From the NCBI RefSeq assembly GCF_029894165.1, contig NZ_JARXXU010000001.1:806001-870000 (forward strand): a DNA stretch of 64,000 nucleotides, in the 5' to 3' direction. The notes beneath the pieces were generated by a model, which made no database searches, was not told where the DNA came from, and was given only the letters and a program-made list of their open reading frames with translations. Both the position numbers and the translations under genes were made by a program. This DNA is from Aurantimicrobium minutum. Lineage in GTDB: Bacteria > Actinomycetota > Actinomycetes > Actinomycetales > Microbacteriaceae. Of this stretch, positions 19,704 through 55,452 are shown in pieces (position 1 is the stretch's first letter; each line of letters starts with the position of its first letter).

Positions 19704-20810
19704 ATGACTCGTCGCCTGCCCTCCAGCCCGCCTGTTCTCTCCGGATTCACGTTCATTCGAGTCTTGGGTTCCGGTGGTTTCGGTGACGTCTTCTTGTATG
19801 AACAGCAGCTTCCTCGCCGCCAGGTGGCCGTCAAAGTTCTTCTCCCAGAAGTAGTCAATCCTCGGGTGAGCAGCATGTTCCAATCTGAGGCAGAACTCAT
19901 GTCTCAATTGAGTACCCACCCGGCCATTTTGAGTGTCTTTGAAGCAGGGGTGAGCTCTGATGGGCGCCCCTTTCTCGTCACCGAAGTCTGTGTGGGTGGC
20001 TATGGCGAACGTTTCCGCGCAGAAACCATTCCCGTGGCAGAAGCGGTCCGCACGGGCATCAAGATTGCCGCCGCACTGGAAACCGCGCACCGGGCCAATG
20101 TCCTCCACCGTGATATCAAGCCCGGCAACATTCTGGTGACCGCCTATGGTCACCCGGTGCTCAGTGACTTCGGTATTGCGTCCTCGGTCTATCAGGGCGA
20201 TAACTCAACAGCTGTCGGGTTGAGCGTTCCCTGGGCAGCGCCCGAAGTGATTCGTGAGAGCACCACCGGAACGACAGCGTCAGAGATGTGGGCACTTTCC
20301 GCGACAATTTATTCGCTTCTGGCCGGTCGCAGTCCCTTCGAAATTCCGGGCAAAGACAATTCTCCCGGCCACCTGGCGGGTCGAATTCTGAAAAGTTCTC
20401 CACAGCCCATAGGTCGTCCTGATGTTCCTGCCCAGCTCGAGAAAGTACTCTTCTCAGCTATGAGCAAGAATCCCATGGAACGACCACACTCGGCACTGGA
20501 ATTCGCGCGCCAGTTGCAGCAGGTCGAAACCTCGATGGGTCTAGCCCAAACACCCCTGGATGTGGTGGGGGATGAGTGGGGCTCCACCGCTATCCTCATC
20601 AACGAGAACGACCGCACCGCACTCGCTCCCCTCGATGCACACACGGGCGCGGCCTGGAAGCGGAAGGGCTACAACACCACTCCAGCCAAGCGTGACGAGA
20701 TTGCGCTGGCCGCTGCGAAGCGCCGTCGTGTGCTGTTGTGGGGCTTTGTTTCCGCTGCTGTGGGTGTTGTGGGAGTCATCGTGGGCGTGATTGCATTGAC
20801 GGCCGGGTAA
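19704..20810 (+). CDS. Membrane-anchored Ser/Thr protein kinase (PknB-like, no PASTA domains)
   Basis: 368-residue Hanks-type kinase. Glycine loop GSGGFGDVF (about residues 22-30), ATP lysine in VAVKVLL, catalytic HRDIKPGNILV (about 135), metal-binding DFG in SDFGIAS. A single membrane helix (VLLWGFVSAAVGVVGVIVGVIAL) lies at the extreme C-terminus with essentially nothing outside the cell, so unlike PknB it has no PASTA sensor. A strong GAAGGGAGGG site precedes the ATG. The next gene starts 2 bp after the stop, implying a coupled operon with the large Ig-like protein, which may act as its extracellular partner (inference). Confidence 0.94.
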   Translation: MTRRLPSSPPVLSGFTFIRVLGSGGFGDVFLYEQQLPRRQVAVKVLLPEVVNPRVSSMFQSEAELMSQLSTHPAILSVFEAGVSSDGRPFLVTEVCVGGYGERFRAETIPVAEAVRTGIKIAAALETAHRANVLHRDIKPGNILVTAYGHPVLSDFGIASSVYQGDNSTAVGLSVPWAAPEVIRESTTGTTASEMWALSATIYSLLAGRSPFEIPGKDNSPGHLAGRILKSSPQPIGRPDVPAQLEKVLFSAMSKNPMERPHSALEFARQLQQVETSMGLAQTPLDVVGDEWGSTAILINENDRTALAPLDAHTGAAWKRKGYNTTPAKRDEIALAAAKRRRVLLWGFVSAAVGVVGVIVGVIALTAG

Positions 20811-20812
20811 TC

Positions 20813-23800
20813 ATGTTCCGAACGTGGCTCACCCCCGGTCGCACGACGGCCATCAAGTGGACGTCTGCTCTGAGTGTTTTTGTGCTGCTCATCGTGGGGG
20901 CGCTGTTAGCTACCGGTTATCAGGCCCAGCGCGTGAACCTTAACGACGGTGCTGTCTGGGTAACGAACGGAGACAAGCAGGCCATTGGCCGTGCCAACAC
21001 CAAAGTTCTCGAACTCAACACTGTCGTCACGACAGACTCCACCCGTATGGATCTGGTGCAAAACTCGTCTACCGTTTTCCTTCTCAATGACGCCACACGC
21101 TCACTCGATGTGGTGAACCAAGCCACGGGCTTGGTTTCTGAGAGCATCCCCTTGCCCCAAGATGTGACCTATGCCGCTCTCGCCGGCACCAACGTGATCT
21201 TGCACGCACCGGCAACCGGTGATGTCTGGGTTCTTCCGTCGGCCACCATTTCTAACTTTGACGCACAGACGCAGCCAGCCAACTTCACCGTGGGCGCAGA
21301 CTCGGTCGTTGCTGTGACCACCGAGGGCTATCTCGTCGGTGCCAGTGCGCAACTGGGCACTCTCACCACGCTCAACACCGTGACGTCCGTCACTCCAGAG
21401 AGCCAAGCGCTGGACGGTGAGCTCACCGCAGATAACCTCGGTATCACGGTGATTGGGGAACGCTGGGCGCTGCTTGATCGTGCCACGGGAATCCTTTATA
21501 CCGCTGGCCGTGTGATTGATCTGGGAAGCCAGATAGAAAACAGCACACAGGCTGTACTGCAGTGGCCCAGTGCACAGGGTGTGCAGGTGGCCAATGGGCA
21601 AGTGAGTGCTGTCTCCGGAAACTCTGGAATCCTGCTCTCCACGTCTTCAGGTCTCTCTGCAGTGAACTTGGATAGCGCAGAAGTAACCACAGTAACGAGT
21701 TCACGGGGACGCGCGGCAGCGCCGCTCATCTCAGGAGACTGTGCCTTTGCGGCATGGTCGGGTGGGGATGTGTGGTCGCACTGCGGCGCAACAGAAGCCC
21801 TCTCCGAGGTTGCAGATTCCATGCCGGGAACAGCGCAGCTTACGTTCCGGGAAAGCGCAGGTGTTGTTGCGCTCAATGACACCGTTAGCGGTCTGGTCTG
21901 GGCCGTCCAGGGTGGCGTTCGCTTGATTGATAACTGGGATTCTTTGCTGGAACAACAGGCTCTCGAAGAGCAGGTTGTGCAAACCAACTCGGCCGATGCT
22001 CCCGAATATGACAAGGACCCACAGCCACCTGTTGCGGTGGATGACGATTTGGGTGCCAGGCCGGGTCGAGTAACGGGTCTTCCCGTTCTCCTCAATGACT
22101 ATGACCCCAACGGGGATGCATTGGTCATCGACTCTGTCACAACCATTCCGGCAGCATGGGGAGAAATTTTCATCAACGCTGACCGCAATCAGGTCATGTT
22201 GCGACTGACCTCCGAAGCAGCCGGAACCACGCAGTTTGACTACACCATCTCGGATGGTCGTGGCGGTGAAGCTACTGCCACGGTCACGGTCACCATTCGC
22301 CCCGAGAGTGAGAACTCTGCGCCCGTCCAGGCTCGTCCGACCCGCACTGACGTGGCTATGGGTGGACAGGTCATTGTGAACGTATTGGGCGACTGGATTG
22401 ACCCCGATGGCGATGCCATCTTCGTCCAAGCTGCTTCCACCGAGGAGCCTGATTCCCTGTCATATTCCCCTGCCGGTCGTGTGGCCTTCACCGACTCCGG
22501 TCGCGGTGGTGGCGGCACCAAGCAGGTTGCACTGGAAGTCTCTGATGGCCGGGCATCAGGGTTTGGCTCCGTGCAGGTTAACGTCCGTGCCGCAGGTCAG
22601 GTGCCCATTGTGGCAGAAGCTTTTGCTGTGATGGCGATTGCAGGTCAGCCGCTCACTATTGATCCGTCACCCCACATTCGCGGCGGCTCCGGTGTTCTCA
22701 GCTTGACGGGAGTTCCCGCTGTGGCCGGGCTGGATATCGTTCCCGACTTTGCTGATTTCTCATTTACCGTGACACCTTCCCGCACCGGTTCCAGCTACAT
22801 CACCTATGCCGTGACAGATGGAGACACCACGGGTTCCGGTGTGGTTCGCATCGATGTCATCGATCCTCCCGAAGTTTCGGCGCAGCCCGTAACCGCTGCT
22901 CACGCGGTGTATGTGCCCCTGCAGCAAACTCGCTCGGTAGATGTCACGGCAACTGACCGGGATCCTGCAGGTGGAGTTCTCGTGGTGACCGGTGTGATGA
23001 ATGTTCCGGTGCAGTCGGGCATTCAGGTGGAAGTGACGGAGCACCGACTCATTCGAGTGACCCTGACGAAACCGTTGGATGCTCCGGTGTCGTTCAGTTA
23101 TCGCATCAGCAACGGAATTTCGCAAAGCGAAGGCACCATCACAGTTGTGCAAACTCCGGCACCCACAATTGCACAAGCTCCCGTCGCACTACCTGACGTG
23201 GTCTCGGTGCGCGTGGGGGACGTTATTTCCATTCCCGTCCTCGCAAATGACATTCATCCCGATGGTGGTCAGCTCACCCTGGCGCCCACGCTGGATCAGG
23301 ACGTTAGCAGCTCGGCAGGTCTGCTTTTCGTCTCCGGTTCGCAGCTACGTTTTTTAGCGGGCACTAACCCTGGAACATATTCAGCGGTGTATCGCGTAAA
23401 TGCCGATAACGGGCAGTGGGCTAGCGGCACCGTCACCATTGCCGTTCGTGCCATCGATGCCGATACTAACCAAGCACCGACACCCCGCTCGGTGACCGCG
23501 CGGGCCATGTCGGGACAAACCGTGCGGATACCTATTCCTCTGTCGGGTATCGATCCTGACGGCGACTCGGTCCAATTCGTGGGCCTCGATACCAACCCCG
23601 AAAAGGGTTCCATCTCGGCGGTGGGCTCTGACTGGGTCGAGTATGAAGCTTCGGCGTATGCCACCGGCACAGACACCTTCTCCTATTCCGTGGTGGATGC
23701 TCTGGGAGCTCAAGGCAGAGCCTCGATCCGGGTGGGAATCGCAGAAACTTTGGCTGGAGGTCGCAACCCCATCGCGGTGGCAGATAACGTCACAGCGAGG

Positions 23801-26512
23801 CCTGGAGCAACTGTTTATGTGCGTGCATTGCTCAACGACAGCGATCCGGACGGACGTCCGCTGACACTGCTGAGTGTCACCCCACAGGATCCTTCTGTCA
23901 CGGCTGAAATAGTGGGCGATCTGGTCAAGATCACGGCCCCACGCACGCTTGGCCGCTACGGCATGGTCTACGAGATTGAAAATGACCTTGCGGGCACAGC
24001 ATCGAACTTCATTACCCTCGATGTGCAGGACCAGGCGCCTCTGTCCAAGCCTGTCATTGGCGATGCTGTGGTGAGTTTGAGCGACATACTGGGCCGTAGC
24101 TCTGTAGATGTGAATGTCATGGCAAACGCTTTCTTTGCCGATGGCCCCGTCTCGAGTCTGCGACCAACGATTGTCGGCGGATATGGCGCCACCGCTCGCG
24201 TGATTTCTAGCAGTACGGTTCGCGTGCAGGTACTGGCGACCAGCCAGATCATTCCGTTCCAGGTCGCTCACCCCGATGACCCCCGTGTGGTCTCCACCGC
24301 GTTCATGTGGGTTCCTGGAACCGATGATGCCCTGCCACAGCGCAAGCGCGGTGTTGCCCCCTTGACGGTGGTCAGTGAGGAAACCCTCCGCATCAACATC
24401 AATGACTACGTCATCGCCGCTTTGGGGAAAACGGTGAGCATTACCGACAGTGCAACCGTGCGTGCCACCCACGCGGATGGCTCGCGAGTGGTGGTCAACG
24501 ACACCACCTTGAGCTACACCAGCGAAGATCGCTACTTCGGACCTGCGTCAATCTCGTTTGAGGTCACCGACGGTGCTTCCGCATCCGCCTCGGGGGCTCA
24601 CACCGCCACGATCGTTCTGCCGATTACAGTGACGCCGCGTGAAAACATGCCCCCGGTCATGTTGGGTGCAGACATCGACTTAGAACCTGGTCAAGAAAAG
24701 ACTCTGGACCTCGTTCGTGTGACCCGTTACCCCTACGTCGATGACCAAGACGAGCTCGAATACACCGTCACCGGTGCGGGACAGGGTGTCAGCGCGACCC
24801 TGTCGGGTCAGACGCTGACGCTCACAGCCCGTGACGATGCCGCCAAGGGTCGGACCGTTCCGCTCACAGTGACGGTCAAGGACAAGGTTGCCGACGGAAA
24901 CTCGGGCGAGATTATTGTCCGCATCGTGCCTTCCACCAGGCCACTTGCTATCCCCGCGACAGACAGCATTGTGGCCACGCGTGGTGAAACCCAGACGGTG
25001 GATGTTCTGGCCAATGACGGGGCAACCAACCCCTTCCCTGGACAGCCCCTGCGTGTGGTTTCTGTCCGTGGACTCAACAACGGCAACATTCCTGCCGGGG
25101 TCACCGTGACGCCCTCTGCAGATAAGGCCACCCTGACGGTGACGGTGTCCTCCTCGGCCGACCCCAGCGATACCACCCTGGAATATGAGGTGGCAGATGC
25201 CACCAATGATGAAGATCGCTATGTCTGGGGCATCATTAACATTTCGGTGCAAGACGCACCCGATGCACCTGCCGCGCCCACGCGCGCAGCTGGATTCGTT
25301 TCTGGTGCGCTGACTCTGTCCTGGCCTGCACCAACAGCAAACAACTCAGCGATTACGACCTACATCGTGGAAAGCGATGGTGGGTACCGCAAGGAATGCA
25401 CATCCACCATCTGCACGCTCGATGGCTTGCCCACCGGTCAGCGTTTCCGATTCTCCGTATCTGCGGTTAACGGGATTGGCAACTCAGGCCCGGGGAGCTG
25501 GAGCACACCACTGAGTGCTGATGTTGTTCCTGACGGCCCCTCCTCGGTCACCATCAGCACACTCGGATATGACAGCGCTCATCCAGACGGCGGCGGGATA
25601 TCAGTTTCGTGGAGTGCCGTGGGCGTACCCTCCGGCGGAAGCGCCGTCACGGCGTACCGGGTTGTGGTTCTCGAGGATGGTTCCACCGTCCGCGGCTCCT
25701 TCGAGATCCCCGCTGGCACCACCCCCAGTATTGGTCCACTTTGGTACTCTGCAGGTCACAGCTATGTTGCTCGGGTCACACCCATCAACGATGCAGACAC
25801 AGATAACTGGAACTCCACCACCTCCAATCCGGTGACGGCCATTGGCGCCCCCATTGCCGGTGGCGGGCTATCTGCCAGCCAAACCGGAACGAACGGTGAG
25901 ACGGTATTCAGCTGGGCACCGGTGGGGGCAAACGGTGCCAACACGGTGAGCTACTTCGTTCGTGGTTCAACCTCACCACTGAGCTCTGGAACATGCCCCG
26001 CAGATTATGCTTCTGCAACGCCTCTGGGCTCGGCAACCTCCTGGAGTGATGCAACTGCGAAGAATCCCGGAAGTTACTCCTTCGCTGTGTATGCCACTAA
26101 TGGCTTCAGCTGTGTGGCTCAAACAACAAGCGTGACAATTAGCCAGCGCGTTCCGGGGACTGCGAGCTATACCTCTGTTGAATGTTTTGACACCAGTACA
26201 CAGCTTCCTTGTGGAGCTAACCCAGCGCAGGGAACTAGATTCTCCATCCGCGTGATTGATCCCACGGTGGATGCCTTTGCCAACACAGTCACCATCTGGC
26301 AAATCAAGGTGGGTACTGAATGGAAAGACCTCACTGAGGTCACGACAACACCTCGTCCCACGAGTCCAACCTACGAAATTTCAGACACTGACTATTTCGC
26401 AGCCCAGGGTGCATCTGGTTCAGGCCAGACTGTAGTCATTCGGGGATGCGCAACGACAACTAACTGTGGTGCTGACGGTGGCACAACACAGATCACGATC
26501 CCCGCACAATAG
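20813..26512 (+). CDS. Giant N-terminally anchored Ig-like/fibronectin type III surface protein
   Basis: 1,899 aa. A short cytosolic stub (RTWLTPGRTTAIKW) precedes one membrane helix at about residues 17-36. About 45-390 looks like a beta-propeller (repeated short strand motifs, with a Cys pair in GDCAFAAWSGGDVWSHC). About 405-1475 contains roughly ten cadherin/Ig-like modules with recurring LLNDYDPNGDALVIDSV, SDGRGG and DPDGD calcium-site-like loops. About 1482-1760 contains FnIII modules (APTRAAGFVSGALTLSWPAP and following), then a Cys-containing C-terminal domain. There is no C-terminal helix or LPXTG, so it is a type II membrane protein facing outward. ATG at 20813 is chosen because it follows the kinase stop by 2 bp and gives the basic-stub/helix start. 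Confidence 0.87.
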   Translation: MFRTWLTPGRTTAIKWTSALSVFVLLIVGALLATGYQAQRVNLNDGAVWVTNGDKQAIGRANTKVLELNTVVTTDSTRMDLVQNSSTVFLLNDATRSLDVVNQATGLVSESIPLPQDVTYAALAGTNVILHAPATGDVWVLPSATISNFDAQTQPANFTVGADSVVAVTTEGYLVGASAQLGTLTTLNTVTSVTPESQALDGELTADNLGITVIGERWALLDRATGILYTAGRVIDLGSQIENSTQAVLQWPSAQGVQVANGQVSAVSGNSGILLSTSSGLSAVNLDSAEVTTVTSSRGRAAAPLISGDCAFAAWSGGDVWSHCGATEALSEVADSMPGTAQLTFRESAGVVALNDTVSGLVWAVQGGVRLIDNWDSLLEQQALEEQVVQTNSADAPEYDKDPQPPVAVDDDLGARPGRVTGLPVLLNDYDPNGDALVIDSVTTIPAAWGEIFINADRNQVMLRLTSEAAGTTQFDYTISDGRGGEATATVTVTIRPESENSAPVQARPTRTDVAMGGQVIVNVLGDWIDPDGDAIFVQAASTEEPDSLSYSPAGRVAFTDSGRGGGGTKQVALEVSDGRASGFGSVQVNVRAAGQVPIVAEAFAVMAIAGQPLTIDPSPHIRGGSGVLSLTGVPAVAGLDIVPDFADFSFTVTPSRTGSSYITYAVTDGDTTGSGVVRIDVIDPPEVSAQPVTAAHAVYVPLQQTRSVDVTATDRDPAGGVLVVTGVMNVPVQSGIQVEVTEHRLIRVTLTKPLDAPVSFSYRISNGISQSEGTITVVQTPAPTIAQAPVALPDVVSVRVGDVISIPVLANDIHPDGGQLTLAPTLDQDVSSSAGLLFVSGSQLRFLAGTNPGTYSAVYRVNADNGQWASGTVTIAVRAIDADTNQAPTPRSVTARAMSGQTVRIPIPLSGIDPDGDSVQFVGLDTNPEKGSISAVGSDWVEYEASAYATGTDTFSYSVVDALGAQGRASIRVGIAETLAGGRNPIAVADNVTARPGATVYVRALLNDSDPDGRPLTLLSVTPQDPSVTAEIVGDLVKITAPRTLGRYGMVYEIENDLAGTASNFITLDVQDQAPLSKPVIGDAVVSLSDILGRSSVDVNVMANAFFADGPVSSLRPTIVGGYGATARVISSSTVRVQVLATSQIIPFQVAHPDDPRVVSTAFMWVPGTDDALPQRKRGVAPLTVVSEETLRININDYVIAALGKTVSITDSATVRATHADGSRVVVNDTTLSYTSEDRYFGPASISFEVTDGASASASGAHTATIVLPITVTPRENMPPVMLGADIDLEPGQEKTLDLVRVTRYPYVDDQDELEYTVTGAGQGVSATLSGQTLTLTARDDAAKGRTVPLTVTVKDKVADGNSGEIIVRIVPSTRPLAIPATDSIVATRGETQTVDVLANDGATNPFPGQPLRVVSVRGLNNGNIPAGVTVTPSADKATLTVTVSSSADPSDTTLEYEVADATNDEDRYVWGIINISVQDAPDAPAAPTRAAGFVSGALTLSWPAPTANNSAITTYIVESDGGYRKECTSTICTLDGLPTGQRFRFSVSAVNGIGNSGPGSWSTPLSADVVPDGPSSVTISTLGYDSAHPDGGGISVSWSAVGVPSGGSAVTAYRVVVLEDGSTVRGSFEIPAGTTPSIGPLWYSAGHSYVARVTPINDADTDNWNSTTSNPVTAIGAPIAGGGLSASQTGTNGETVFSWAPVGANGANTVSYFVRGSTSPLSSGTCPADYASATPLGSATSWSDATAKNPGSYSFAVYATNGFSCVAQTTSVTISQRVPGTASYTSVECFDTSTQLPCGANPAQGTRFSIRVIDPTVDAFANTVTIWQIKVGTEWKDLTEVTTTPRPTSPTYEISDTDYFAAQGASGSGQTVVIRGCATTTNCGADGGTTQITIPAQ

Positions 26513-34168: not shown

Positions 34169-34181
34169 ACATTTCCCCATC

Positions 34182-34199
34182 ACAGCGATATATCGCTGT
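34182..34199. promoter_or_regulatory. 18-bp perfect palindrome upstream of the actinorhodopsin gene
   Basis: ACAGCGATATATCGCTGT is perfectly symmetric and lies 110 bp before the rhodopsin start, just after the FtsK-like gene. A TACGAT hexamer overlaps its right end (34199-34204) and could be a -10 element, which would put the palindrome over the promoter. Either an operator for a dimeric regulator or a short hairpin; an operator is more likely because no T run follows. Confidence 0.6.
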
Positions 34200-34271
34200 A
34201 CGATGAATCCATAACACCTCTGGTGACGCCAAGCCCCAATGTCGGGGTGTGGACCTCAAGGCTTTCCGCCA

Positions 34272-34294
34272 CCAATAGATCTATTGACTATTGG
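34272..34294 (+). promoter_or_regulatory. Overlapping repeats at the actinorhodopsin ribosome-binding site
   Basis: CAATAGATCTATTG (34273-34286) is a 14-bp palindrome. CTATTG occurs again at 34288-34293 (7-nt direct repeat), so CCAATAG (34272-34278) can pair instead with CTATTGG (34288-34294), whose last bases begin the GGAAGG Shine-Dalgarno (34293-34298). Two mutually exclusive hairpins, one of which covers the start of the ribosome-binding site, can thus form. A hairpin-prone CCCC/GGGG pair lies further upstream near 34233-34246. Regulation by structure is an inference. Confidence 0.5.
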
Positions 34295-35161: not shown

Positions 35162-35710
35162 ATGAGCCGGAACGCATTAATCGTGATTGATGTTCAGCAA
35201 GGGTTTGATCAATTGGAATATTGGGGGCCTCGGAACAATCCCGCGTGCGAAGACAACATCCGGGCGTTGCTGAAGAAATGGCGCGCATCTGGCCAGCCGG
35301 TAGTCCTCGTGCGGCATGATTCAGCGGGGCCACAATCGCCGCTTCGCCCAGGGCAACCAGGAAATGATTTCAAGCCAGGCATCGATGGCCCGCATGATCT
35401 TCTGATCGCCAAGACTGTCAATTCGGCTTTTTATGGAGAGCCTGACTTGGATGCGTGGTTAACAGCTTCCGAGATAACCGACGTCACTATTTGTGGAATT
35501 ACAACCAATCACTGTTGTGAAACAACGGCCCGCATGGCCGGCAATCTGGGCTATGACGTGACCTTCGTCCTGGATGCAACGCATACCAATGACCGCATCG
35601 ACGTCGACGGGAATGTTATTCCGGCGGCTGACATTGCGCGAACGACAGGTGCAAACCTGCATGGTGAATTTGCCACCGTGCGCAGCACAGCAGAAGTCCT
35701 CGCAGGTTAG
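35162..35710 (+). CDS. Isochorismatase-like cysteine hydrolase
   Basis: 182 aa alpha/beta hydrolase of the isochorismatase/nicotinamidase superfamily. Catalytic Asp in VIDVQQGF (about residue 9), Lys in IAKTVNSAF, and the nucleophilic Cys in GITTNHCCETTARM with the preceding cis-peptide-type turn. Members hydrolyse isochorismate, nicotinamide, ureidoacrylate and related amides; this one is not assignable. ATG at 35162 is used because the earlier in-frame start at 35108 would overlap the rhodopsin terminator. The stop overlaps the convergent TetR gene by 4 bp. Confidence 0.9.
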   Translation: MSRNALIVIDVQQGFDQLEYWGPRNNPACEDNIRALLKKWRASGQPVVLVRHDSAGPQSPLRPGQPGNDFKPGIDGPHDLLIAKTVNSAFYGEPDLDAWLTASEITDVTICGITTNHCCETTARMAGNLGYDVTFVLDATHTNDRIDVDGNVIPAADIARTTGANLHGEFATVRSTAEVLAG

Positions 35711-36318
35711 TTCAGTAGGGACTTCTCGACCACGGTCATGATGAGGTTCATCCAGGCTTCCTGATCGACCTTCTCGGGTGCGATGTCATCGACAATGCGG
35801 CCAACCGTATATGCCTGGACGAACACTGCAGCAGCGCGGGCATCAACCGTGGGGGACATCCAGCCTTTGTTCTGTGCTTCGACGAAGAGGTCAGTAAACG
35901 CTTCGGTGAGACGCTGCTGTTCAAGGCCCAGCGCGTCGTGGAAGCGAGGGCTGCTGTACGTGAGGCCGGCCGCGCGTGCACGCTCCAGGCGGAAGCTTGA
36001 GCGGCTTTGTGCCTGGTTGTAGACATTGAGCTCGCGGAGTGCTCCGAGGAGCTCCTCTTTGGAACTGACGGTTGCGAGAATCTGAGACAGGGCATCGATG
36101 GTCGCATCGACGTTCACGCTAAATCGAGCAATCAATGCTGCCTCAACGAGGTCTTCGAAGTCTTCGAAGTGGTGGTACAGCGAACCCTTGGAAATCCCGG
36201 AAGCGTTGAGTACCTGGTCGGCAGTAATGTGCTCGGGGTCTGAGCCGTCGAGCAGTTCAACCATGGTCATGATTAATCGATCACGGGTGGGGTGCGAAGT
36301 CTTGGGCATGCTGCCCAT
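35707..36318 (-). CDS. TetR-family transcriptional regulator
   Basis: 203 aa. N-terminal helix-turn-helix at about residues 30-55 (ITADQVLNASGISKGSLYHHFEDFEDLVEAAL), the canonical TetR DNA-binding unit, and a ligand-binding helical C-terminus. The start is ATG at 36318 or at 36309 (MPKTSHPTRDRL). No clear Shine-Dalgarno. Its neighbour is the convergent isochorismatase-like gene. The regulated gene is unknown. Confidence 0.92.
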   Translation of the reverse strand: MGSMPKTSHPTRDRLIMTMVELLDGSDPEHITADQVLNASGISKGSLYHHFEDFEDLVEAALIARFSVNVDATIDALSQILATVSSKEELLGALRELNVYNQAQSRSSFRLERARAAGLTYSSPRFHDALGLEQQRLTEAFTDLFVEAQNKGWMSPTVDARAAAVFVQAYTVGRIVDDIAPEKVDQEAWMNLIMTVVEKSLLN

Positions 36319-37291: not shown

Positions 37292-39199
37292 ATGGCGCAC
37301 GCCCTCCGCACAGACCGACGTAACGTCGCAATCGTTGCACACGTTGACCACGGTAAGACCACCCTGGTTGACGCCATGCTCAAGCAGACCAACTCCTTCG
37401 ACGCCCACTTTGCTGGCGAAGACCGCATGATGGACTCGAACGACCTCGAACGCGAAAAGGGCATCACCATCCTCGCGAAGAACACGTCGGTTTCTTACGA
37501 GGGTAAGCACGCCACCGATGGTCCCATCATCATCAACGTGATCGACACCCCAGGCCACGCCGACTTCGGTGGCGAGGTGGAACGTGGTCTGTCCATGGTG
37601 GACGGCGTTGTTCTTCTCGTTGACGCCTCTGAGGGCCCACTGCCTCAGACTCGCTTCGTACTGCGTAAGGCACTGGAAGCGAAGCTTCCCGTCATTCTTT
37701 TGGTCAACAAGACCGACCGCCCCGATGCTCGTATCGATGAGGTTGTGGGCGAAAGCCAGGACCTGCTTCTCGGTCTGGCTTCTGACATGGCCGATGACGT
37801 ACCTGACCTCGACTTGGACCTCGTCCTAGACGTTCCTGTTGTGTATGCATCTGGCCGTGCCGGTGCTGCCAGCCACAACAAGCCAGAGAACGGTTCGTTG
37901 CCTGATAACGATGACCTTGAGCCTCTGTTCGAAGCCATCCTGCAGCACGTCCCTGCGCCGTCTTACGATGACGCTCACCCACTGCAGGCTCACGTGACCA
38001 ACCTCGATGCGTCGCCATTCTTGGGTCGTCTTGCACTGCTGCGTATCTTCAACGGAAACATCAAGAAGGGCCAGCAGGTTGCCTGGGTCAAGAACGATGG
38101 CTCGGTTCAGAACGTCAAGATTACGGAACTGCTCATCACCAAGGCGCTGGAGCGTTTCCCCACCGACACTGCAGGCCCTGGTGACATCGTCGCTATCGCC
38201 GGTATTGAAGACATCACCATTGGTGAAACCATTGCTGACCCCAACGATGTTCGCCCCTTGCCCACCATCACGGTGGATGATCCTGCGATCTCGATGACCA
38301 TTGGTACCAACACCTCGCCCATTATTGGCAAAGTCAAGGGCCACAAGCTCACCGCTCGCATGGTCAAGGACCGCCTTGACCGCGAGCTCGTCGGTAACGT
38401 TTCGATCAAGTTGGTTGACATTGGTCGCCCCGACGCCTGGGAAATCCAGGGCCGTGGTGAACTTGCTCTCGCCATCCTCGTCGAGAACATGCGCCGTGAA
38501 GGCTTCGAGCTCACTGTGGGCAAGCCACAGGTTGTGACCAAGAAGGTGGACGGCAAGGTGCACGAGCCTTTCGAGCACCTCACCATTGACGCCCCCGAGG
38601 AATACCTTGGTGCCGTGACACAGCTTCTCGCAGCTCGTAAGGGCCGCATGGAGTCCATGACCAACCACGGCACCGGCTGGGTTCGTATGGAATTCATCGT
38701 TCCGTCCCGCGGTCTGATTGGTTTCCGTACCGAGTTCATGACCATCACCCGGGGCGCTGGAATCGCGAACGCTGTTTCTCACGGTTATGAAGCATGGGCA
38801 GGTTCCATCGTGACTCGCACCAATGGTTCGATTGTTGCGGACCGCGCTGGTGTGGCAACACCGTTTGCCATGGTCGCACTCCAGGAGCGCATGAGCTTCT
38901 TCGTAGAGCCCACTCAGGAGGTTTACGAAGGCATGGTCGTCGGCGAGAACTCCCGCGCTGATGACATGGACGTCAACATCACGAAGGAAAAGCAGCTGAC
39001 CAACATGCGTCAGTCCACCTCCGACAGCTTTGAGCGCATGACGCCCTCACGCAAGCTCACGCTGGAAGAGTGCCTCGAGTTCGCTCGTGAAGATGAGTGT
39101 GTGGAGGTAACCCCTGAACACGTTCGTATCCGTAAGGTCGAGCTGGATTCCAACGCTCGTGCGCGGACCACGAGTCGCCTCAAGAAGCAGAACGAATAA
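37292..39199 (+). CDS. typA: Translational GTPase TypA/BipA
   Basis: 635-residue ribosome-binding GTPase involved in 50S assembly and growth under cold or other stress. G1 AHVDHGKTTL (about 14-23), switch region LEREKGITILAKNTS, G3 DTPGHADFGGEVERG, G4 NKTDRPDAR, then the EF-G-like domains and the BipA-specific C-terminus (TRTNGSIVADRAGVATPFAM, LTLEECLEFAREDE). ATG at 37292 with AGAGGA 6 nt upstream gives the standard N-terminus; the long in-frame extension upstream overlaps the divergent CPBP gene and is not coding. Confidence 0.97.
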   Translation: MAHALRTDRRNVAIVAHVDHGKTTLVDAMLKQTNSFDAHFAGEDRMMDSNDLEREKGITILAKNTSVSYEGKHATDGPIIINVIDTPGHADFGGEVERGLSMVDGVVLLVDASEGPLPQTRFVLRKALEAKLPVILLVNKTDRPDARIDEVVGESQDLLLGLASDMADDVPDLDLDLVLDVPVVYASGRAGAASHNKPENGSLPDNDDLEPLFEAILQHVPAPSYDDAHPLQAHVTNLDASPFLGRLALLRIFNGNIKKGQQVAWVKNDGSVQNVKITELLITKALERFPTDTAGPGDIVAIAGIEDITIGETIADPNDVRPLPTITVDDPAISMTIGTNTSPIIGKVKGHKLTARMVKDRLDRELVGNVSIKLVDIGRPDAWEIQGRGELALAILVENMRREGFELTVGKPQVVTKKVDGKVHEPFEHLTIDAPEEYLGAVTQLLAARKGRMESMTNHGTGWVRMEFIVPSRGLIGFRTEFMTITRGAGIANAVSHGYEAWAGSIVTRTNGSIVADRAGVATPFAMVALQERMSFFVEPTQEVYEGMVVGENSRADDMDVNITKEKQLTNMRQSTSDSFERMTPSRKLTLEECLEFAREDECVEVTPEHVRIRKVELDSNARARTTSRLKKQNE

Positions 39200-39219
39200 A
39201 TCTCTTCAGATTTACTAAG

Positions 39220-39255
39220 AAAAGGGCTCCTACGAAAGTAGGAGCCCTTTTCTGT
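39220..39255 (+). terminator. Rho-independent terminator of typA
   Basis: AAAAGGGCTCCTAC (39220-39233) pairs with GTAGGAGCCCTTTT (39238-39251) around a GAAA tetraloop: a 14-bp perfect stem ending in a T run. It isolates typA from the downstream surface-protein gene. Confidence 0.95.
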
Positions 39256-39288
39256 TGTTGAACACCGCGAAAAAATAAAGGTTTAATC

Positions 39289-39334
39289 CCCTTATGCTTA
39301 AGGGAAATATCCCTTAGTTTCTTAAGGTGATAAT
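39289..39334 (+). promoter_or_regulatory. Phased CCTTA/TAAGG operator array and -10 of the surface-protein gene
   Basis: Four half-sites alternate in orientation: CCCTTA (39289-39294), TAAGGG (39299-39304), CCCTTA (39311-39316) and TAAGG (39323-39327). Neighbouring sites start 10-12 bp apart, about one helical turn. A good -10 hexamer GATAAT (39329-39334) follows at once, so the array covers the core promoter. An AAGGGG ribosome-binding site (39348-39353) and the GTG start at 39362 come after. A dimeric regulator binding cooperatively is the simplest reading; the factor is unknown. Confidence 0.6.
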
Positions 39335-39361
39335 CACTGAAATTTTCAAGGGGAATCATTC

Positions 39362-42300
39362 GTGAAAAGCAGCACCTTATCTGTGACTCGGATCTTTCAC
39401 TCCCGCACAAATCAGTGGATTAGCGGACTTTTTGCAATCGTTCTCTTCACCGCAGGCTTAGTTGCTTTCACGCCTATTGCCGCTAGTGCAGCAGTTCCTA
39501 CTGCACCGACAATTACTGATGTTGATCAAATCGATCAAGGTCTTACAATCACATTTACAGCGCCTAGTGGTGTGACTCCTTCGATATCTAACTATGAATA
39601 TTCAGTTGACGGAGGGGCGACCTGGACCGCCTCAAACCCTGCAGTGACCTCAAGTCCCATTACGATTACCGGATTGAACAACTGTCAAACATATTCAATT
39701 TCACTGCGTGCAGTTAATGCTGACGGTGCGGGTGTCGCAGCCGAGCCTTGGAACGGCGTACCTGGGGCACTTCAGTATGTTTTAAATAATGGTTTGATGA
39801 GATTCGGTACAGGGGCAGAAGCTTCAGTTCAAACTAATGGAAATCTAAAACAGCCCTGGTATAAAAATTCATCTGGTGGTTGGTCCCCAATGACTTTCTC
39901 TAACTATGCATTGAACTATGGGCTTGCAGTAGGAGGCGACGGCTCGAGTGAATGGAATGCAAATGGTTCGTTAGTTGAGTTCAACGGGGTTACCCTTGAA
40001 CGCCAAACAATCGACTGTTCTCAATTTGTCACTACCTCCACATCTGGGAATCTTGCAACTGGCTACGGATCACTTTCAACAACTGGGAGATACACGTTTC
40101 CAGGAAGCGGTGAAGTGGTTGAAATATCTCGCAAATATACCCAGAGCTTAACCAGTAAATACACCACATTTACTGAAACAATTCGAAATGTTGGCTTGGT
40201 GCCCATGAGGAACGCACGCTTATGGGTAGGAACCCAGGATGACTGGATCGGTAGTGATGACCGAAATACCAAAAAACGTGGAAATATTTCTAACGGAGCG
40301 TTTGTTCAGATTCCACAGTCGAGTACCCAAGCCAAAGTTTTGGAAATATCAAACGCTTCAGATACCGTTTATTTCTACACAACCTCAAACCTTGGTTACG
40401 TCACGGGCTTAAACGGGTACGGTGATTTTACTCAACGAGTCATGAGGCAGAACCCTGGAACTGCGCTAACGAGTGTTTACAATGACGGTTCGTATGGGAT
40501 GTATCTTCGATTCCAAGATTTGGATCCAGGTGCTTCTGAGTCTTTCAACTGGTATTACCTTGCGTCTTCATCTGCTGAAGCTGCAAACCTTCTTGGGAAT
40601 GTAGCATCGTCTGCGTTACCAGGTGCGCCTTCGATTAGTTCCGTAGATGCTGGTGACGGCCAGGTATCAGTTGACTTCGTTGAAGGAACCACTGGTGGAT
40701 CCGGCCTAACAAACTACCAGTATTCGACTGACAGTGGAGCTACTTGGCAAACCCGTTCACCAGCTTCAATTTCTAGCCCGCTTGTGATTAACGGACTCAC
40801 GAACGGCACTTCTTATGATGTCAAGATTCGTGCCGTGAACTCAGAAGGAGCTGGTACCTCCACGAGCTCAACGCCCGTAATTCCAATAGGCGCTCCCCAA
40901 GCCCCGCAGATCACATCGCTTTCACAAACGGACACTTCCGTTACGGTCTCCTTTAATGCACCTGGTTCTGATGGTGGCTCCGCAATTACCTCTTACCAAC
41001 ACTCAAGCGATGGCGGAAATACTTGGATTTCACCCACACCTGCTGTCACTTCATCGCCTGTGACCATCACTGGGTTAATGCCTGGTACGCAATATCAAAT
41101 TGCTGTCAGGGCGGTAAACGCTCAGGGGGATGGAATTTCAAGCGCTAGTCAAAGTGTGACTACCTACACTGCTCCCGGTGCGCCGACCGTGGGGGCAATA
41201 ACCCCCGGAAACCAGAGTCTTTCAATTAGTTTTGTCTCCGGCACGAGCGGTGGAACTCCGTATACGAATATTGAGTATTCGTTGGATGGAGGCGCCTCCT
41301 GGAATACTCGGTCCCCTACAAGCACCGATTCTCCTTTGATTGTTTCCGGTCTGACAAATGGAACTTCGTATGATGTTGCACTCAGAACGGTTAACTCAGT
41401 GGGACATAGTGTGCGTTCTAACATTGTCACTGCTGAGCCAGTTGCCGTCCCGGCTGCAATCACTTTCCCCCAAGGGACAAATGTCACTCCTAGTAGCGGA
41501 ACCCTTACCTTAACTTTCGCGGCTCCTGATAATGGGGGGTCCCCCATAACCGGTTATCAATACTCCACTGATTTGGGTGTGACATGGCGTGACCGAACAG
41601 ATTCTGGCGGTACTTCAACCACTCTCACTATTTCCAAACTCTCTGTGGACGGAGCAACAGATTTAGCAAACGGTACTGCTTATCGTGTTCAAGTTCGTGC
41701 TGTGAATTCTGTTGGACCGGGTCTTGCTTCCAACGATGCTAGTGGTACTCCCGCTACGGTCTCTGCAGCCCCAACCATTGACTCTGTGACTGCTCGAGAC
41801 AGATCACTGGAACTTGCATTCACCCTAGGTAGCAATGGTGGAGCACCCATCACATCTCTTGAATATTGTTTGCTGGATTGTTCAACTTCTTCAAACTGGA
41901 TTTCTGTTGCAAGTGTCTCTAGTCCACTTCGGATTACGGGCCTTTTCAATGGAATCGCATACACCCCGAGTATTCGGGCAGTCAATGCTCAAGGACCAGG
42001 CACTTCGGTAACCGCAGCTTCTTCGACCCCTGCAAGTGCTCCAACAGCAGTGACAATTTCCTCAGTGACAACAGGGGCCGGCCAAGCAGCGGTCCTCTTC
42101 AATGCCCCATCGAGTAACGGTGGTCTTTCGATAACGAATTACGAATACTCATTAGATGGTGGGACAACATGGGTGACGCCATCTCCCACCTCTACTGCCA
42201 CCACCATAACTGTGCTTGGACTAACTAACGGAACCAGCTATGGCTTTGCAGTTCGCGCAGTTACAGCATCAACCACTGGTCTTGCGAGTGCCGTGACATA

Positions 42301-44848
42301 CGGCACTCCATCGACTACACCGAGTGTTCCTGTTTCTCCTACTTTGGAGGCAGCAAGTGGACGAATCAACGTTTCACTCACGGCACCAGACAATGGTGGT
42401 TCGCCAATCACAACCTACGAATATGCGCTTTCTTCCAACGGTGGGGCGTATGGAGCGTGGGTTTCAACAAATTCAACTTCGACAAGTTTTATGATTCAGG
42501 GCGTGACAAACGGCACTGCTTATGGTGTAAAAATTCGTGCACTGAACATCAATGGCTCTGGAACGGTATATACCCATTCAACAACTGTCACACCAGTTGG
42601 AGTCCCTGATTCTCCTGTGGTGACATCTACGAGTAATTCACAAATTCTGAATAGTTTGACCACCCGCCAGATTGCTGTTAACTTCACAGAGCCAGCAAAT
42701 AATGGTTCTGCCATTACTAACTATCAGTACTCAACCGACAACGGAGCTACGTGGATAAACAGAACAGACACGACTGGACGTCTTTCCCCCATCGTGATTT
42801 CTAAATTATCTACTGACGGAACCACTGATCTCAACATAGATACCCCATACACATTAAAGATTCGTGCCATCAACGCGAATGGAAATGGTGACGCTTCGGT
42901 CGCGGTTTCTGCTCGAACCGGCGGTGCCGTGGATACAACCGCGCCAACCGTGACATTGAGTCGTGTGGCTGGTGATTTCAGTTCCTCTCGGAACCTGACA
43001 TTCCTGGCAACTTTTAGTGAAACTGTGTCAGGCGTGACGACATCAGACATCGTTCGCAGCTCAGGTACGGCATCATGTTCCATTTCAAGCGTTTCAGCTG
43101 CTTCAGGGACGTCTATCAATATCAACGTGAGCTGCACAACTGACGGAACGTACCAGATTAGAATTAACGCAAACACTGTCACCGATGGCCAGAACACAGG
43201 CCCCACTTCAGCGGTTACTTCTAACCTCGTAACCATTAACTCGGTTGCACCCACTGCAAGTATTCAAACAGCGAGCGCTACCTCTGGCAGTAGGACTCTT
43301 ACTTTCCCGGTAACTTTCAGCTCATCGGTCACAGGAATTGGCTACAGCGACTTTGTTCAGGCAAGTGGAACTGCAAGTTGCTCCTCGATTGCTGTCTCTG
43401 CGGCATCTGGGACCACTGTGAGCTTCACAGTTTTATGTTCAACTGATGGCACTGTAACCATGAGGCTTCTTGCCAACTCGGTGGCAAATAGCTATTTCTC
43501 AGCACCCGTAAATGCCGTGGATTCCTCCCAAGTAACAATTGACTCCAGTGTGCCTACCGCTACGGTCGCTTCGCCTTCTACTCGAACAAGCTCACGTTCA
43601 TTGACTTACGTCGTGACCTTTTCAGAAACCGTTTCGGGCGTGAGCGCATCTGATTTTGTTCAATATGCGGGAACAGCGAGCTGTACAACTTCTGCTCTAT
43701 CGGCAACGAGCGGCACAAGCATCACGTTTACTGTTACCTGTTCGAATGATGGTTCAGTTCAGATGAGGCTTTCCGCTAATTCCATTACAGATGGAATTAA
43801 CCTCGGTCCTTCGGCAGTTTTGAATTCAAATATGGTGACGGTCGATCAAATAGCACCTTCAGCTTCCATCGCATCACCAGCAGTCAACTCGAAAATCCGT
43901 GTCCTGAGTTACACGGTTGATTTCAGCGAAATTGTGACTGGAATTTCTGATGCTGACTTTGTACAGAGTGCCGGAACAGCAACATGTTCAACCAGCAGTG
44001 TTTCTCAGGCCTCTGGTCAAAGCGTCACATTCAAAGTGACGTGTACCTCGGATGGAACTGTAACCATGAAGTTCTTATCGGGTTCTGTTTCTGACGGTCT
44101 CTATACAGGGCCGTCCGCAGATGTACTTTCGCGTGAAGTGAACATCGACTCCACTGTTGCTTTCGTGATTACGCCTCGGGTTTCACCGCGCTCTGGGCCA
44201 GTAATTCAACCTGCCCCGCAGGTAACACCGGCTCCACGGGCACCCACGCTTCTTAACGGTGAATTGCCCCGAGTTACAACCTCAGCACCTGTGATCATTA
44301 TTGATGGAACTGCCACAACTACTCAAATCACTACCTTGCCATCAGGTGCGCAACAGATTTCACTGTCTGCAGGTGCATCCGTATCGCTGGACGCAGTGAG
44401 CGAGAAGACGGGAAAATCAGTTTCTGCTTCTTCATCTGGCGTAATGCAAATAAGCCACGGTGACAGCCTTGTAATCCAGGCAATTGGTCTGCAGCCAGGC
44501 TCCGAAATTGAAGTATGGCTGTTCTCGACACCAAAATTGTTGGGAACAGTGATTGTCGGACCCGATGGAACTGCATCTGGAGAGTTTGCAATCCCTGCTG
44601 GTCTTCATGTGGGTTCTCACACCGCGCAGATTGACGGCATTGATTCAACCGGCACAGAAGTTTCTGTGAATACGGCACTTCAGATTTCTGAACAGAAAGC
44701 TTCTTCCACAGTGGAAACTGCGGGTTCCCAGTCCTCCGGTACTTCAACGATCACCATGGTGGTGTGGATTGGGGCTGGAGCGTTACTCCTGGCTCTGCTC
44801 TTCTTCTTGTTCTTCCTGTTCAGGAAGCGCATTAGAAACTCAGACTAA
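39362..44848 (+). CDS. Giant secreted FnIII/Ig-like repeat surface protein with C-terminal membrane anchor
   Basis: 1,828 aa. Sec signal peptide (helix about 19-38, AASAA cleavage-like site about 40-45). One FnIII module (about 45-130), then an unrecognised domain (about 135-415, with WVGTQDDWIGSDD and FNWYYLAS), then about eight FnIII repeats (about 420-1190, each with a YQYSTDGGATW-like strand and LTNGTSYDVKIRAVN). Four tandem repeats of about 101 residues follow (about 1193-1598), each with FSE-VSGVxxSDFVQ-x-SGTASC. Next come a Pro-rich spacer, a final beta domain, and a C-terminal helix (VVWIGAGALLLALLFFLFFLF) with a basic tail. There is no LPXTG. Composition is visibly richer in A+T than the flanks, which suggests transfer or relaxed selection. 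GTG start with AAGGGG upstream. Confidence 0.87.
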   Translation: MKSSTLSVTRIFHSRTNQWISGLFAIVLFTAGLVAFTPIAASAAVPTAPTITDVDQIDQGLTITFTAPSGVTPSISNYEYSVDGGATWTASNPAVTSSPITITGLNNCQTYSISLRAVNADGAGVAAEPWNGVPGALQYVLNNGLMRFGTGAEASVQTNGNLKQPWYKNSSGGWSPMTFSNYALNYGLAVGGDGSSEWNANGSLVEFNGVTLERQTIDCSQFVTTSTSGNLATGYGSLSTTGRYTFPGSGEVVEISRKYTQSLTSKYTTFTETIRNVGLVPMRNARLWVGTQDDWIGSDDRNTKKRGNISNGAFVQIPQSSTQAKVLEISNASDTVYFYTTSNLGYVTGLNGYGDFTQRVMRQNPGTALTSVYNDGSYGMYLRFQDLDPGASESFNWYYLASSSAEAANLLGNVASSALPGAPSISSVDAGDGQVSVDFVEGTTGGSGLTNYQYSTDSGATWQTRSPASISSPLVINGLTNGTSYDVKIRAVNSEGAGTSTSSTPVIPIGAPQAPQITSLSQTDTSVTVSFNAPGSDGGSAITSYQHSSDGGNTWISPTPAVTSSPVTITGLMPGTQYQIAVRAVNAQGDGISSASQSVTTYTAPGAPTVGAITPGNQSLSISFVSGTSGGTPYTNIEYSLDGGASWNTRSPTSTDSPLIVSGLTNGTSYDVALRTVNSVGHSVRSNIVTAEPVAVPAAITFPQGTNVTPSSGTLTLTFAAPDNGGSPITGYQYSTDLGVTWRDRTDSGGTSTTLTISKLSVDGATDLANGTAYRVQVRAVNSVGPGLASNDASGTPATVSAAPTIDSVTARDRSLELAFTLGSNGGAPITSLEYCLLDCSTSSNWISVASVSSPLRITGLFNGIAYTPSIRAVNAQGPGTSVTAASSTPASAPTAVTISSVTTGAGQAAVLFNAPSSNGGLSITNYEYSLDGGTTWVTPSPTSTATTITVLGLTNGTSYGFAVRAVTASTTGLASAVTYGTPSTTPSVPVSPTLEAASGRINVSLTAPDNGGSPITTYEYALSSNGGAYGAWVSTNSTSTSFMIQGVTNGTAYGVKIRALNINGSGTVYTHSTTVTPVGVPDSPVVTSTSNSQILNSLTTRQIAVNFTEPANNGSAITNYQYSTDNGATWINRTDTTGRLSPIVISKLSTDGTTDLNIDTPYTLKIRAINANGNGDASVAVSARTGGAVDTTAPTVTLSRVAGDFSSSRNLTFLATFSETVSGVTTSDIVRSSGTASCSISSVSAASGTSININVSCTTDGTYQIRINANTVTDGQNTGPTSAVTSNLVTINSVAPTASIQTASATSGSRTLTFPVTFSSSVTGIGYSDFVQASGTASCSSIAVSAASGTTVSFTVLCSTDGTVTMRLLANSVANSYFSAPVNAVDSSQVTIDSSVPTATVASPSTRTSSRSLTYVVTFSETVSGVSASDFVQYAGTASCTTSALSATSGTSITFTVTCSNDGSVQMRLSANSITDGINLGPSAVLNSNMVTVDQIAPSASIASPAVNSKIRVLSYTVDFSEIVTGISDADFVQSAGTATCSTSSVSQASGQSVTFKVTCTSDGTVTMKFLSGSVSDGLYTGPSADVLSREVNIDSTVAFVITPRVSPRSGPVIQPAPQVTPAPRAPTLLNGELPRVTTSAPVIIIDGTATTTQITTLPSGAQQISLSAGASVSLDAVSEKTGKSVSASSSGVMQISHGDSLVIQAIGLQPGSEIEVWLFSTPKLLGTVIVGPDGTASGEFAIPAGLHVGSHTAQIDGIDSTGTEVSVNTALQISEQKASSTVETAGSQSSGTSTITMVVWIGAGALLLALLFFLFFLFRKRIRNSD
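42940..44156 (+). repeat. Four tandem ~303-bp coding repeats (Ig-like modules)
   Basis: Modules begin near nt 42940, 43245, 43550 and 43852 (TAPTVTLSR, APTASIQTA, VPTATVASP and APSASIASP) and each ends in a TDG/SDG-x-N-x-V segment. The unit is about 303-305 bp, and each module keeps one Cys pair (TASC ... SC/C). Divergence between copies is high enough that they are old, not recent, duplications. Confidence 0.7.
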
Positions 44849-45817: not shown

Positions 45818-45836
45818 TTAGGTTAGGTTTACCTAA
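45818..45836. promoter_or_regulatory. IdeR/DtxR iron box 1 (efeU)
   Basis: TTAGGTTAGGTTTACCTAA matches the 19-bp IdeR/DmdR consensus TTAGGTTAGGCTAACCTAA at 17 positions. It lies 29 bp upstream of the efeU start, in promoter range, so iron-loaded repressor would block transcription. Confidence 0.9.
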
Positions 45837-45837
45837 C

Positions 45838-45856
45838 TTAGGTTAACCTAACCTAG
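45838..45856. promoter_or_regulatory. IdeR/DtxR iron box 2 (efeU)
   Basis: TTAGGTTAACCTAACCTAG; its reverse complement matches the 19-bp consensus at 17 positions. It starts 1 bp after box 1, giving a 39-bp double site with half-sites repeated at about 10-bp steps, the layout for two or more cooperating repressor dimers. The divergent gene at 45945 is about 88 bp away and might also respond. Confidence 0.88.
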
Positions 45857-54642: not shown

Positions 54643-55011
54643 TTACTGTCGAGTAATTTCTGTTCTTTCCTCAGGAATCACGACGAGCTTGAGCCCCAAC
54701 GCATGCGTGAGGCGAAAGAGCGTCGTTGCCGTGGGGTTGCCTACGCCTCGTTCAATGCGGCTGATTTCAGCTTGCTGAACGTCTGCAAGTTCGGAGAGCT
54801 TCGGTTGAGTGAGTGACTGTGCTTTTCGGGCTGACTGCAGGGCGGCCCCAAGTTCAGAACGGTCACGCATTTCTTTTTGGAAATCCGCAGAAACCGCGTA
54901 GTAAATTTTCCAGTCATCCTCAGTCCAAGACTTTCGGAAATCCTGCATAAAGTCTTCGTAGGGTATCGTTTGCCGATTTTTGACCATGGTATTGATTATG
55001 TGATTAAACAC
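54643..55011 (-). CDS. higA: HigA-like XRE-family antitoxin
   Basis: 122 aa. Helix-turn-helix at about residues 58-110: LGAALQSARKAQSLTQPKLSELADVQQAEISRIERGVGNPTATTLFRLTHALG, a standard XRE/HigA fold, preceded by a helical segment. The GTG at 55011 starts 3 nt after the toxin stop; an internal ATG at 54987 has no Shine-Dalgarno. Composition is more A+T rich than flanking housekeeping genes, which suggests acquisition. Confidence 0.87.
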   Translation of the reverse strand: MFNHIINTMVKNRQTIPYEDFMQDFRKSWTEDDWKIYYAVSADFQKEMRDRSELGAALQSARKAQSLTQPKLSELADVQQAEISRIERGVGNPTATTLFRLTHALGLKLVVIPEERTEITRQ

Positions 55012-55014
55012 TTT

Positions 55015-55431
55015 TTATTTCAACCCTTCCTTCCATTCATTGTGAAGTTTTCTAGCAGCGCGTATCTCGCGTTGTTGCCTTTTGGGAGACGGGTCGCGTT
55101 GTTTGTCATAGCCATGATGGAGAACAACAATCTTGTCTCCATGAAATGTGCAAAATATTCGAATGAGGACCGGAGTGTTACTGCGAGCTGAGCGTGGTGA
55201 GTCCGATCCTGCGTTAGGCGGGTTTTCAAATGCATGTAGTGACTTCCTAATTCGGAATTCATACAGACCATCGCCAAGTGGCTTCCCCCACTCGCCTGAA
55301 CAAATTTGAATACCTTCGATAGCCAATACGTTCAACAATGCAGAGTCGACTACTAGCTGTTGATAGCTGGAGAGGGATGAGTAAAATCTGCCATACGATC
55401 GACCAAAGATTTCTATAGTCCACCTAGACAT
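55015..55431 (-). CDS. higB: HigB/RelE-like toxin (phage Gp49-like family)
   Basis: 138 aa. The C-terminal half shows the RelE-superfamily strand pattern LIRIFCTFHGDKIVVLHHGYDKQRDP...REIRAARKLHNEW typical of HigB/Gp49 mRNA interferases, with the preceding KPLGDGLYEFRIRKS strand. The ATG at 55431 has AAGGA 7 nt upstream; a start at 55446 would put it inside the gene. Toxin precedes antitoxin, the order that defines higBA modules. Confidence 0.88.
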   Translation of the reverse strand: MSRWTIEIFGRSYGRFYSSLSSYQQLVVDSALLNVLAIEGIQICSGEWGKPLGDGLYEFRIRKSLHAFENPPNAGSDSPRSARSNTPVLIRIFCTFHGDKIVVLHHGYDKQRDPSPKRQQREIRAARKLHNEWKEGLK

Positions 55432-55452
55432 CACACATTCCTTCACGCCTGA

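Follow-up and report, generated by a model that had tools for sequence, protein, structure and literature searches.

The window, by which we mean the whole stretch of 64,000 nucleotides of Aurantimicrobium minutum DNA that was analysed, contains between typA and an FTR1 iron-permease gene an open reading frame of 1,828 aa starting at GTG 39362. Between a stem-loop after typA and this start codon lies an array of short inverted repeats. An earlier note on this DNA had described four alternating CCTTA/TAAGG half-sites leading into GATAAT in front of a giant surface-protein gene; the half-sites (39290-39327, followed by GATAAT at 39329-39334) and the giant gene behind them are there. The features of the region are:

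39218..39253 (+), 16-bp perfect stem with 4-nt loop, from an inverted-repeat search; likely typA terminator
39258..39287 (+), TTGAAC-18-TTTAAT, candidate rival promoter with 9/12 consensus matches
39289..39304 (no strand), dyad A-B, CCCTTATGCTTAAGGG, 6-bp arms; proposed first dimer site
39290..39294 (+), half-site A, CCTTA, read from the sequence
39299..39303 (-), half-site B, TAAGG (CCTTA on the minus strand), read from the sequence
39299..39316 (no strand), dyad B-C, TAAGGGAAATATCCCTTA, 7-bp arms; alternative pairing of the half-sites
39312..39316 (+), half-site C, CCTTA, read from the sequence
39312..39327 (no strand), dyad C-D, CCTTAGTTTCTTAAGG; proposed second dimer site, directly 5' of GATAAT
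39323..39327 (-), half-site D, TAAGG, read from the sequence
39329..39334 (+), GATAAT, candidate -10 without recognisable -35
39348..39353 (+), AAGGGG, likely Shine-Dalgarno sequence, 8 nt 5' of the GTG
39362..44848 (+), gene of the 1,828-aa surface protein, ORF from GTG 39362

The surface-protein gene and its surroundings

The 1,828-aa protein begins with a signal-peptide-like segment, contains fibronectin III repeats (PF00041, 5.5e-45) and carries a C-terminal membrane anchor; an LPxTG motif was not seen in it by eye. In all seven other Aurantimicrobium genomes examined, the sequences of which were read, typA directly precedes the FTR1 gene, and the surface gene with its promoter is therefore an insertion relative to those genomes. 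Its G+C content is 49%, that of the flanking genes 57% and 56%. An orthologue was not found in the seven genomes. Matches to the first 411 residues in 39 relatives cover no more than the repeat part, up to residue 159, a wide contig database search gave no close relative of the N-terminal part, and distant relatives (32-35% identity) occur in only 2 of 397 other family genomes, in neither of which the array is present upstream. The genome of A. minutum KNC has 1,622,386 bp (PMC4929513) and that of INA4 1,581,031 bp (PMC10019192); A. photophilum MWH-Mo1 of the same genus is naturally transformable (PMC11577799).

The stem-loop 3' of typA is, judged from its sequence, probably the typA terminator; it is missing from the stock terminator scan because its T-run sits inside the stem. 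GATAAT agrees with the -10 consensus at five of six positions, the best -35 at a distance of 15-20 bp at only two of six, and a stock promoter scan of the region found no promoter. In the TTTAAT of the upstream candidate, position 2 of the -10 element is not the customary A. If that candidate were used, the array would lie at and directly after the start of transcription, and either promoter position would suit an operator. That the array lies over a promoter, as the earlier note had it, holds for the presence of the GATAAT hexamer; its assignment as the promoter stays conjectural, there being no -35, an empty scan and an upstream rival that scores 9 of 12. The inverted-repeat search of 39195-39420, with a tool that omits runs of 1-3-base units, reported only the repeats of the array itself and the stem after typA and gave no sign of an invertible segment; the only short-unit run seen by eye in the same interval is an A6 run at 39270-39275.

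Several other places in the window deserve mention. Tandem DtxR-type iron boxes lie at 45818-45856, between the FTR1 permease gene and a divergent DUF6113-like gene, 6.5 kb from the array. Two dyads, ACAGCGATATATCGCTGT and CAATAGATCTATTG, stand at 34180-34290 before a rhodopsin gene at 34291. At 54643-55446 on the minus strand a Gp49-like protein (just under the Pfam cut-off) and an HTH_3 protein are encoded in tandem, which has the look of a HigBA-type toxin-antitoxin pair. A second large ORF of 1,924 aa with bacterial Ig/cadherin-like repeats at 20738-26512 is followed by MoxR, DUF58 and transglutaminase genes.

The half-site array and its frequency

The three dyads A-B, B-C and C-D overlap and are built from the same four half-sites; each offers inverted half-sites able to bind a homodimer, as looked for in a TetR-family operator. 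The centres of the half-sites are 9, 13 and 11 bp apart (cumulatively 9, 22 and 33 bp), those of dyads A-B and C-D 23 bp. The helical phasing claimed earlier is right to the extent that the half-sites recur roughly once per turn, and too strict as a description of spacings of 9, 13 and 11 bp: the cumulative distances deviate by at most 1.5 bp from multiples of 10.5, which three spacings can manage by chance. The spacers within dyads A-B and C-D are also unequal, 4 bp in the first and 6 bp in the second. The 108-bp region 39254-39361 has a G+C content of 35%, the window one of 57%.

Whether such a cluster can arise by chance was assessed by accepting any 5-mer (at least 3 different letters) that together with its reverse complement occurs in four alternating copies within 38 bp; since any 5-mer is allowed, the earlier selection of CCTTA brings no advantage. 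Such clusters appeared in 5 of 20,000 dinucleotide shuffles of 39254-39361 and at a rate of 0.1 per shuffled 64-kb window (40 shuffles). In the real window they are found at three places, namely the array, the FTR1 iron boxes and a coding stretch at 18993-19029. By this test the array is unlikely to be due to chance. A generic dyad score, which ignores the shared half-site, is borderline for the array region, being reached in 40 of 1,000 shuffles. CCTTA is otherwise under-represented in the window (30 found, 46 expected).

In the 1.63-Mb genome the triple half-site pattern occurs once per strand, both times inside the array; the reversed control of the pattern likewise occurs once per strand, and the single occurrence of the triple is therefore in itself unremarkable. 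A search of the genome for further copies of the array, which the earlier note had suggested, gave none. Dyads of CCTTA and TAAGG with 0-24 bp between them number 12 in the whole genome, three of which belong to the array: five in the order CCTTA-N0-24-TAAGG (two in the array; reversed control 67) and seven in the opposite order (one in the array; control 70). The idea of a genome-wide regulon of the array was rejected on the other nine: eight fall within predicted ORFs or at their ends, and the ninth is a DtxR-type box. A wide contig database search with the array returned three stretches, all from unrelated taxa, where about four would be expected by chance on rough arithmetic.

Direct analogues come from the genus and the family. 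In a sister genome an array of the same TAAGG/CCTTA half-site, TACTAAGGTTACTTTAGTACTAAGGTAACCTTAGTA, precedes a surface gene that is paired with a TetR-like gene; it accounts for two overlapping matches among the 66 forward matches of a dyad search in eight genus genomes, of which those viewed in context were seven of the own genome, the two of the sister genome and one further locus (L048). The triple half-site pattern is present in 5 of 398 family genomes, the source genome included, its reversed control in many more. Two of the other four triples are read as iron boxes (L141 and L144; 1 mismatch in one of them, 2-3 in the other), one lies in an intergenic region next to a TetR gene and one inside a predicted ORF. 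The third of these loci (L142), in another genus of the Microbacteriaceae, has the pattern in the stretch that separates a dehydrogenase gene from a TetR gene whose product scores above cut-off for PF00440 and PF02909; this regulator has no close homologue in the source genome, the best match being 28% over 53 aa. Arrays of this half-site can thus be iron boxes as well, and the same arrangement occurs near two classes of regulator, TetR and DtxR.

Large surface genes with TetR-like neighbours

Several giant genes with fibronectin III repeats adjoin a TetR-like gene of 247-259 aa. A profile built from three of these TetR-like proteins found eight strong members in five of eight genus genomes; six further, weak rows of the profile search are probably ordinary TetR proteins. 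Surface-type genes of 550-1,448 aa directly adjoin seven of the eight strong members; of the proteins that these genes encode, five have an LxxTG-type end and two a membrane anchor only. The eighth strong member (L094:8491-9490) lies directly 5' of dnaK, the promoter of which carries CTTGATATATCAAGACTCAAGTCTTGA, a sequence that resembles an HspR/HAIR site.

Loci with both a large surface gene and a TetR-like gene were seen in other genus genomes at L062, L065, L066, L093, L095 and L096; dyads are present at most of them and differ from locus to locus. In the source genome itself a 1,193-aa surface gene with a LAKTG end (L069:5349-9817; C1:235349-239817) is divergent from a TetR-like gene, and the intergenic region contains the dyads CTGAAATCATTTCAG and CTGAAGTTATTTCAG of the CTGAA/TTCAG type, 23 bp apart. 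The structural model of this regulator has a pLDDT of 80.8; among solved structures the folds closest to it belong to the TetR family (best E 6e-4), with a TM-score by query length of at most about 0.5. The Pfam scores of the TetR-like proteins are under the curated cut-off. In the wider family a TetR-like protein at E 1e-10 or better was found in 15 of 150 genomes; at loci outside the genus, a neighbour with an LxxTG end was called in only 3 of 27 cases, a rough guide obtained with a crude ORF picker and 1.5-kb flanks.

When the intergenic regions were scored for dyads, shuffled sequences reached the observed score in 1 (L062), 1 (L065), 5 (L069), 12 (L095) and 85 (L093) of 1,000 cases, and the region beside the TetR-like gene at L096 had no dyad; four of the six regions scored thus fall at or below 12 per 1,000, L066 (a near copy of L065) and L094 having been left out. 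For surface genes that lack a TetR neighbour the counts were 18 (L064), 20 (L067) and 50 (L077) of 1,000, which indicates that a TetR neighbour is not required for dyads. At L064 and L067 a dyad of the TTAGACCTGAGGTCTAA type precedes surface genes of 3,200-4,500 aa that have no TetR neighbour; at L068 it is degenerate, and in another genus (L070) a sequence related to TTAGACCTGAGGTCTAA precedes a smaller surface gene.

Dyads precede many other giant fibronectin III genes, with sequences that differ between unrelated loci. Counted over the window and 13 loci in those upstream regions that are 70 bp or longer (arm of at least 7, gap of at most 5), they are present before 8 of 16 ORFs of more than 600 aa and before 9 of 59 other ORFs, in a sample in which several of the 16 are homologous to one another, some of the 59 have their upstream region in common with a member of the 16, and the 13 loci had been picked for their surface genes. 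A pairing of TetR genes with giant or surface genes was found described neither in the literature listings searched nor by a term search in PMC8591293. The unexpected part of the analysis is this group, seen in the genus, of large surface genes that are accompanied by TetR-like regulators and by dyads specific to each locus, and it is a better lead than the array.

Readings of the array and comparison with known operators

That the array is an operator of some kind we consider quite probable. More specifically, we propose, with a probability of about 0.5, that it is a two-dyad operator at which a DNA-binding homodimer acts, most likely a repressor of the TetR type, a reading drawn from the anatomy of the array and from analogy. 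Dyads A-B and C-D, with their centres 23 bp apart, would form one transcriptional operator; the homodimeric regulator would occupy both as two dimers and thereby block RNA polymerase at the promoter of the surface gene, and a ligand would release the dimers, upon which the gene could be transcribed. The cognate protein would be encoded away from the surface gene. The neighbours of the target are typA and FTR1, and a regulator of the TetR-like family, commonly but not obligatorily adjacent to a TetR operator, is not found beside it. The sole strong member of the family in the source genome lies 606 kb off, beside another surface gene with different dyads. Within the window, the TetR gene closest to the target lies 3 kb from it at 35707-36318; it scores above cut-off for PF00440 and under it for the ScbR model. 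Relatives that lack the target gene show, near typA, weak matches of similar size and putative identity, which suggests that this TetR gene is not dedicated to the target. The earlier note had seen in the array a sign of tight control, perhaps phase-like or nutrient-dependent. Regulated transcription is kept here as the best reading, and its tightness is conjectural. Nothing seen supports phase variation, the interval searched having shown only an A6 run, a stem and the repeats of the array, and nutrient dependence meets the poor fit to an iron box that is described below.

The array could instead be a variant metal box of the single DtxR-type regulator, display of the surface protein then being dependent on iron or manganese. 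Next to the target lies an iron-permease gene that has tandem iron boxes, the iron-box clusters at the same site in 7/7 genus relatives contain CCTTAGTAAGG, and two of the four other family-wide matches to the triple pattern read as iron boxes. The DtxR iron box has the 19-bp consensus TWAGGTWAGSCTWACCTWA. Against this 19-mer the array region has at best 7 mismatches, the FTR1 boxes 1 and 2, and the TAAGG-CCTTA spacing is 8 rather than 9; by its match to the consensus the array falls short of an iron box. A self-made 18-mer variant from which one central base was dropped fits better, with 5 mismatches in dyad B-C; only 8 places in the window do as well. We set the identity with an iron box aside on the mismatches to the 19-mer and kept it as a rival in view of the 18-mer. 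A resemblance to the MntR boxes of Bacillus was also considered; a separate MntR regulator of that family was rejected, each of the eight genus genomes, that of the source included, having one single DtxR-family gene and the literature search for it being likewise empty. The proximity to an iron permease, moreover, is explained by the insertion into the typA-FTR1 pair. A variant metal box is unlikely, and we would grant it a slim chance.

A GATAAT without recognisable -35 would also suit an activator, a dimer of which at dyad A-B recruits polymerase, the array then being needed for expression. With a start of transcription near 39341, dyad A-B would be at about -44, near the usual position of class II activators; dyad C-D, however, would fall between -35 and -10, a place typical of repressors, and no activator family is linked to such a site here, which leaves this reading rather improbable. 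A transcript from the upstream promoter, with its 9 of 12 matches, could also carry the array as leader hairpins that attenuate transcription or protect the mRNA, and the stock scan picked out dyad B-C followed by GTTTCTTA as terminator-like (1 such hit against 0.7 expected from shuffles). The folding of 39280-39400 is, however, ordinary (z -1.27; 20 of 200 shuffles at least as stable), the T-run behind the stem is broken and a perfect 16-bp stem is already present upstream; such an RNA element is as poor a candidate as the metal box. Finally, the repeats could be without function, a chance product of a short A+T-rich region picked post hoc. The borderline generic dyad score, the equally frequent reversed control, the choice of the pentamer by a reader who had seen the array and the fact that no conservation can be demonstrated speak for this, the any-5-mer test and the lack of the triple anywhere else in the genome against it, and we hold it to be quite unlikely.

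Returning to the repressor operator, one may speculate that in these freshwater actinobacteria with their streamlined genomes giant surface genes are cassettes that come and go, most of them with a private dyad operator and often with a private TetR-like regulator, and that the target has kept its operator, the regulator being elsewhere or lost. We regard this extension as doubtful. If it were true, each surface protein would be switched by its own signal. If the array is bound, a genome of 1.6 Mb would still spend a dedicated switch on a surface protein that is missing from the related genomes examined, and through the pairing of large surface genes with TetR-like regulators and locus-specific dyads, surface display in these freshwater bacteria would become open to testing one gene at a time.

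In kind the array is an ordinary operator array, and it can be compared with four sets of known or newly seen sites. With the tandem DtxR/IdeR iron boxes of the FTR1 promoter it shares alternating half-sites of related sequence, but it has at least 7/19 mismatches and a spacing that is one base short. The TetR-like/surface pairs of the genus (L062, L069, L065, L066, L093, L095 and L096) have a large surface gene with, in most cases, dyads upstream, one pair being in the same genome and one array being of the same TAAGG/CCTTA type; each has its own regulator gene adjacent, whereas the target has none. The array before the zinc-type dehydrogenase gene at L142 differs from the target by its 7-bp spacers, the adjacent TetR gene and a neighbour of the cytoplasmic enzyme type, and has in common with it the CTTA/TAAGG half-sites in the same alternating order and the two dyads 5' of a start codon. 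In the operators of TetR and QacR the dyads lie between or beside the regulator gene and its target, whereas here no regulator gene is adjacent, the spacings are unequal and the site is putative; inverted half-sites forming two dyads over or next to a promoter are found in those operators as in the target.
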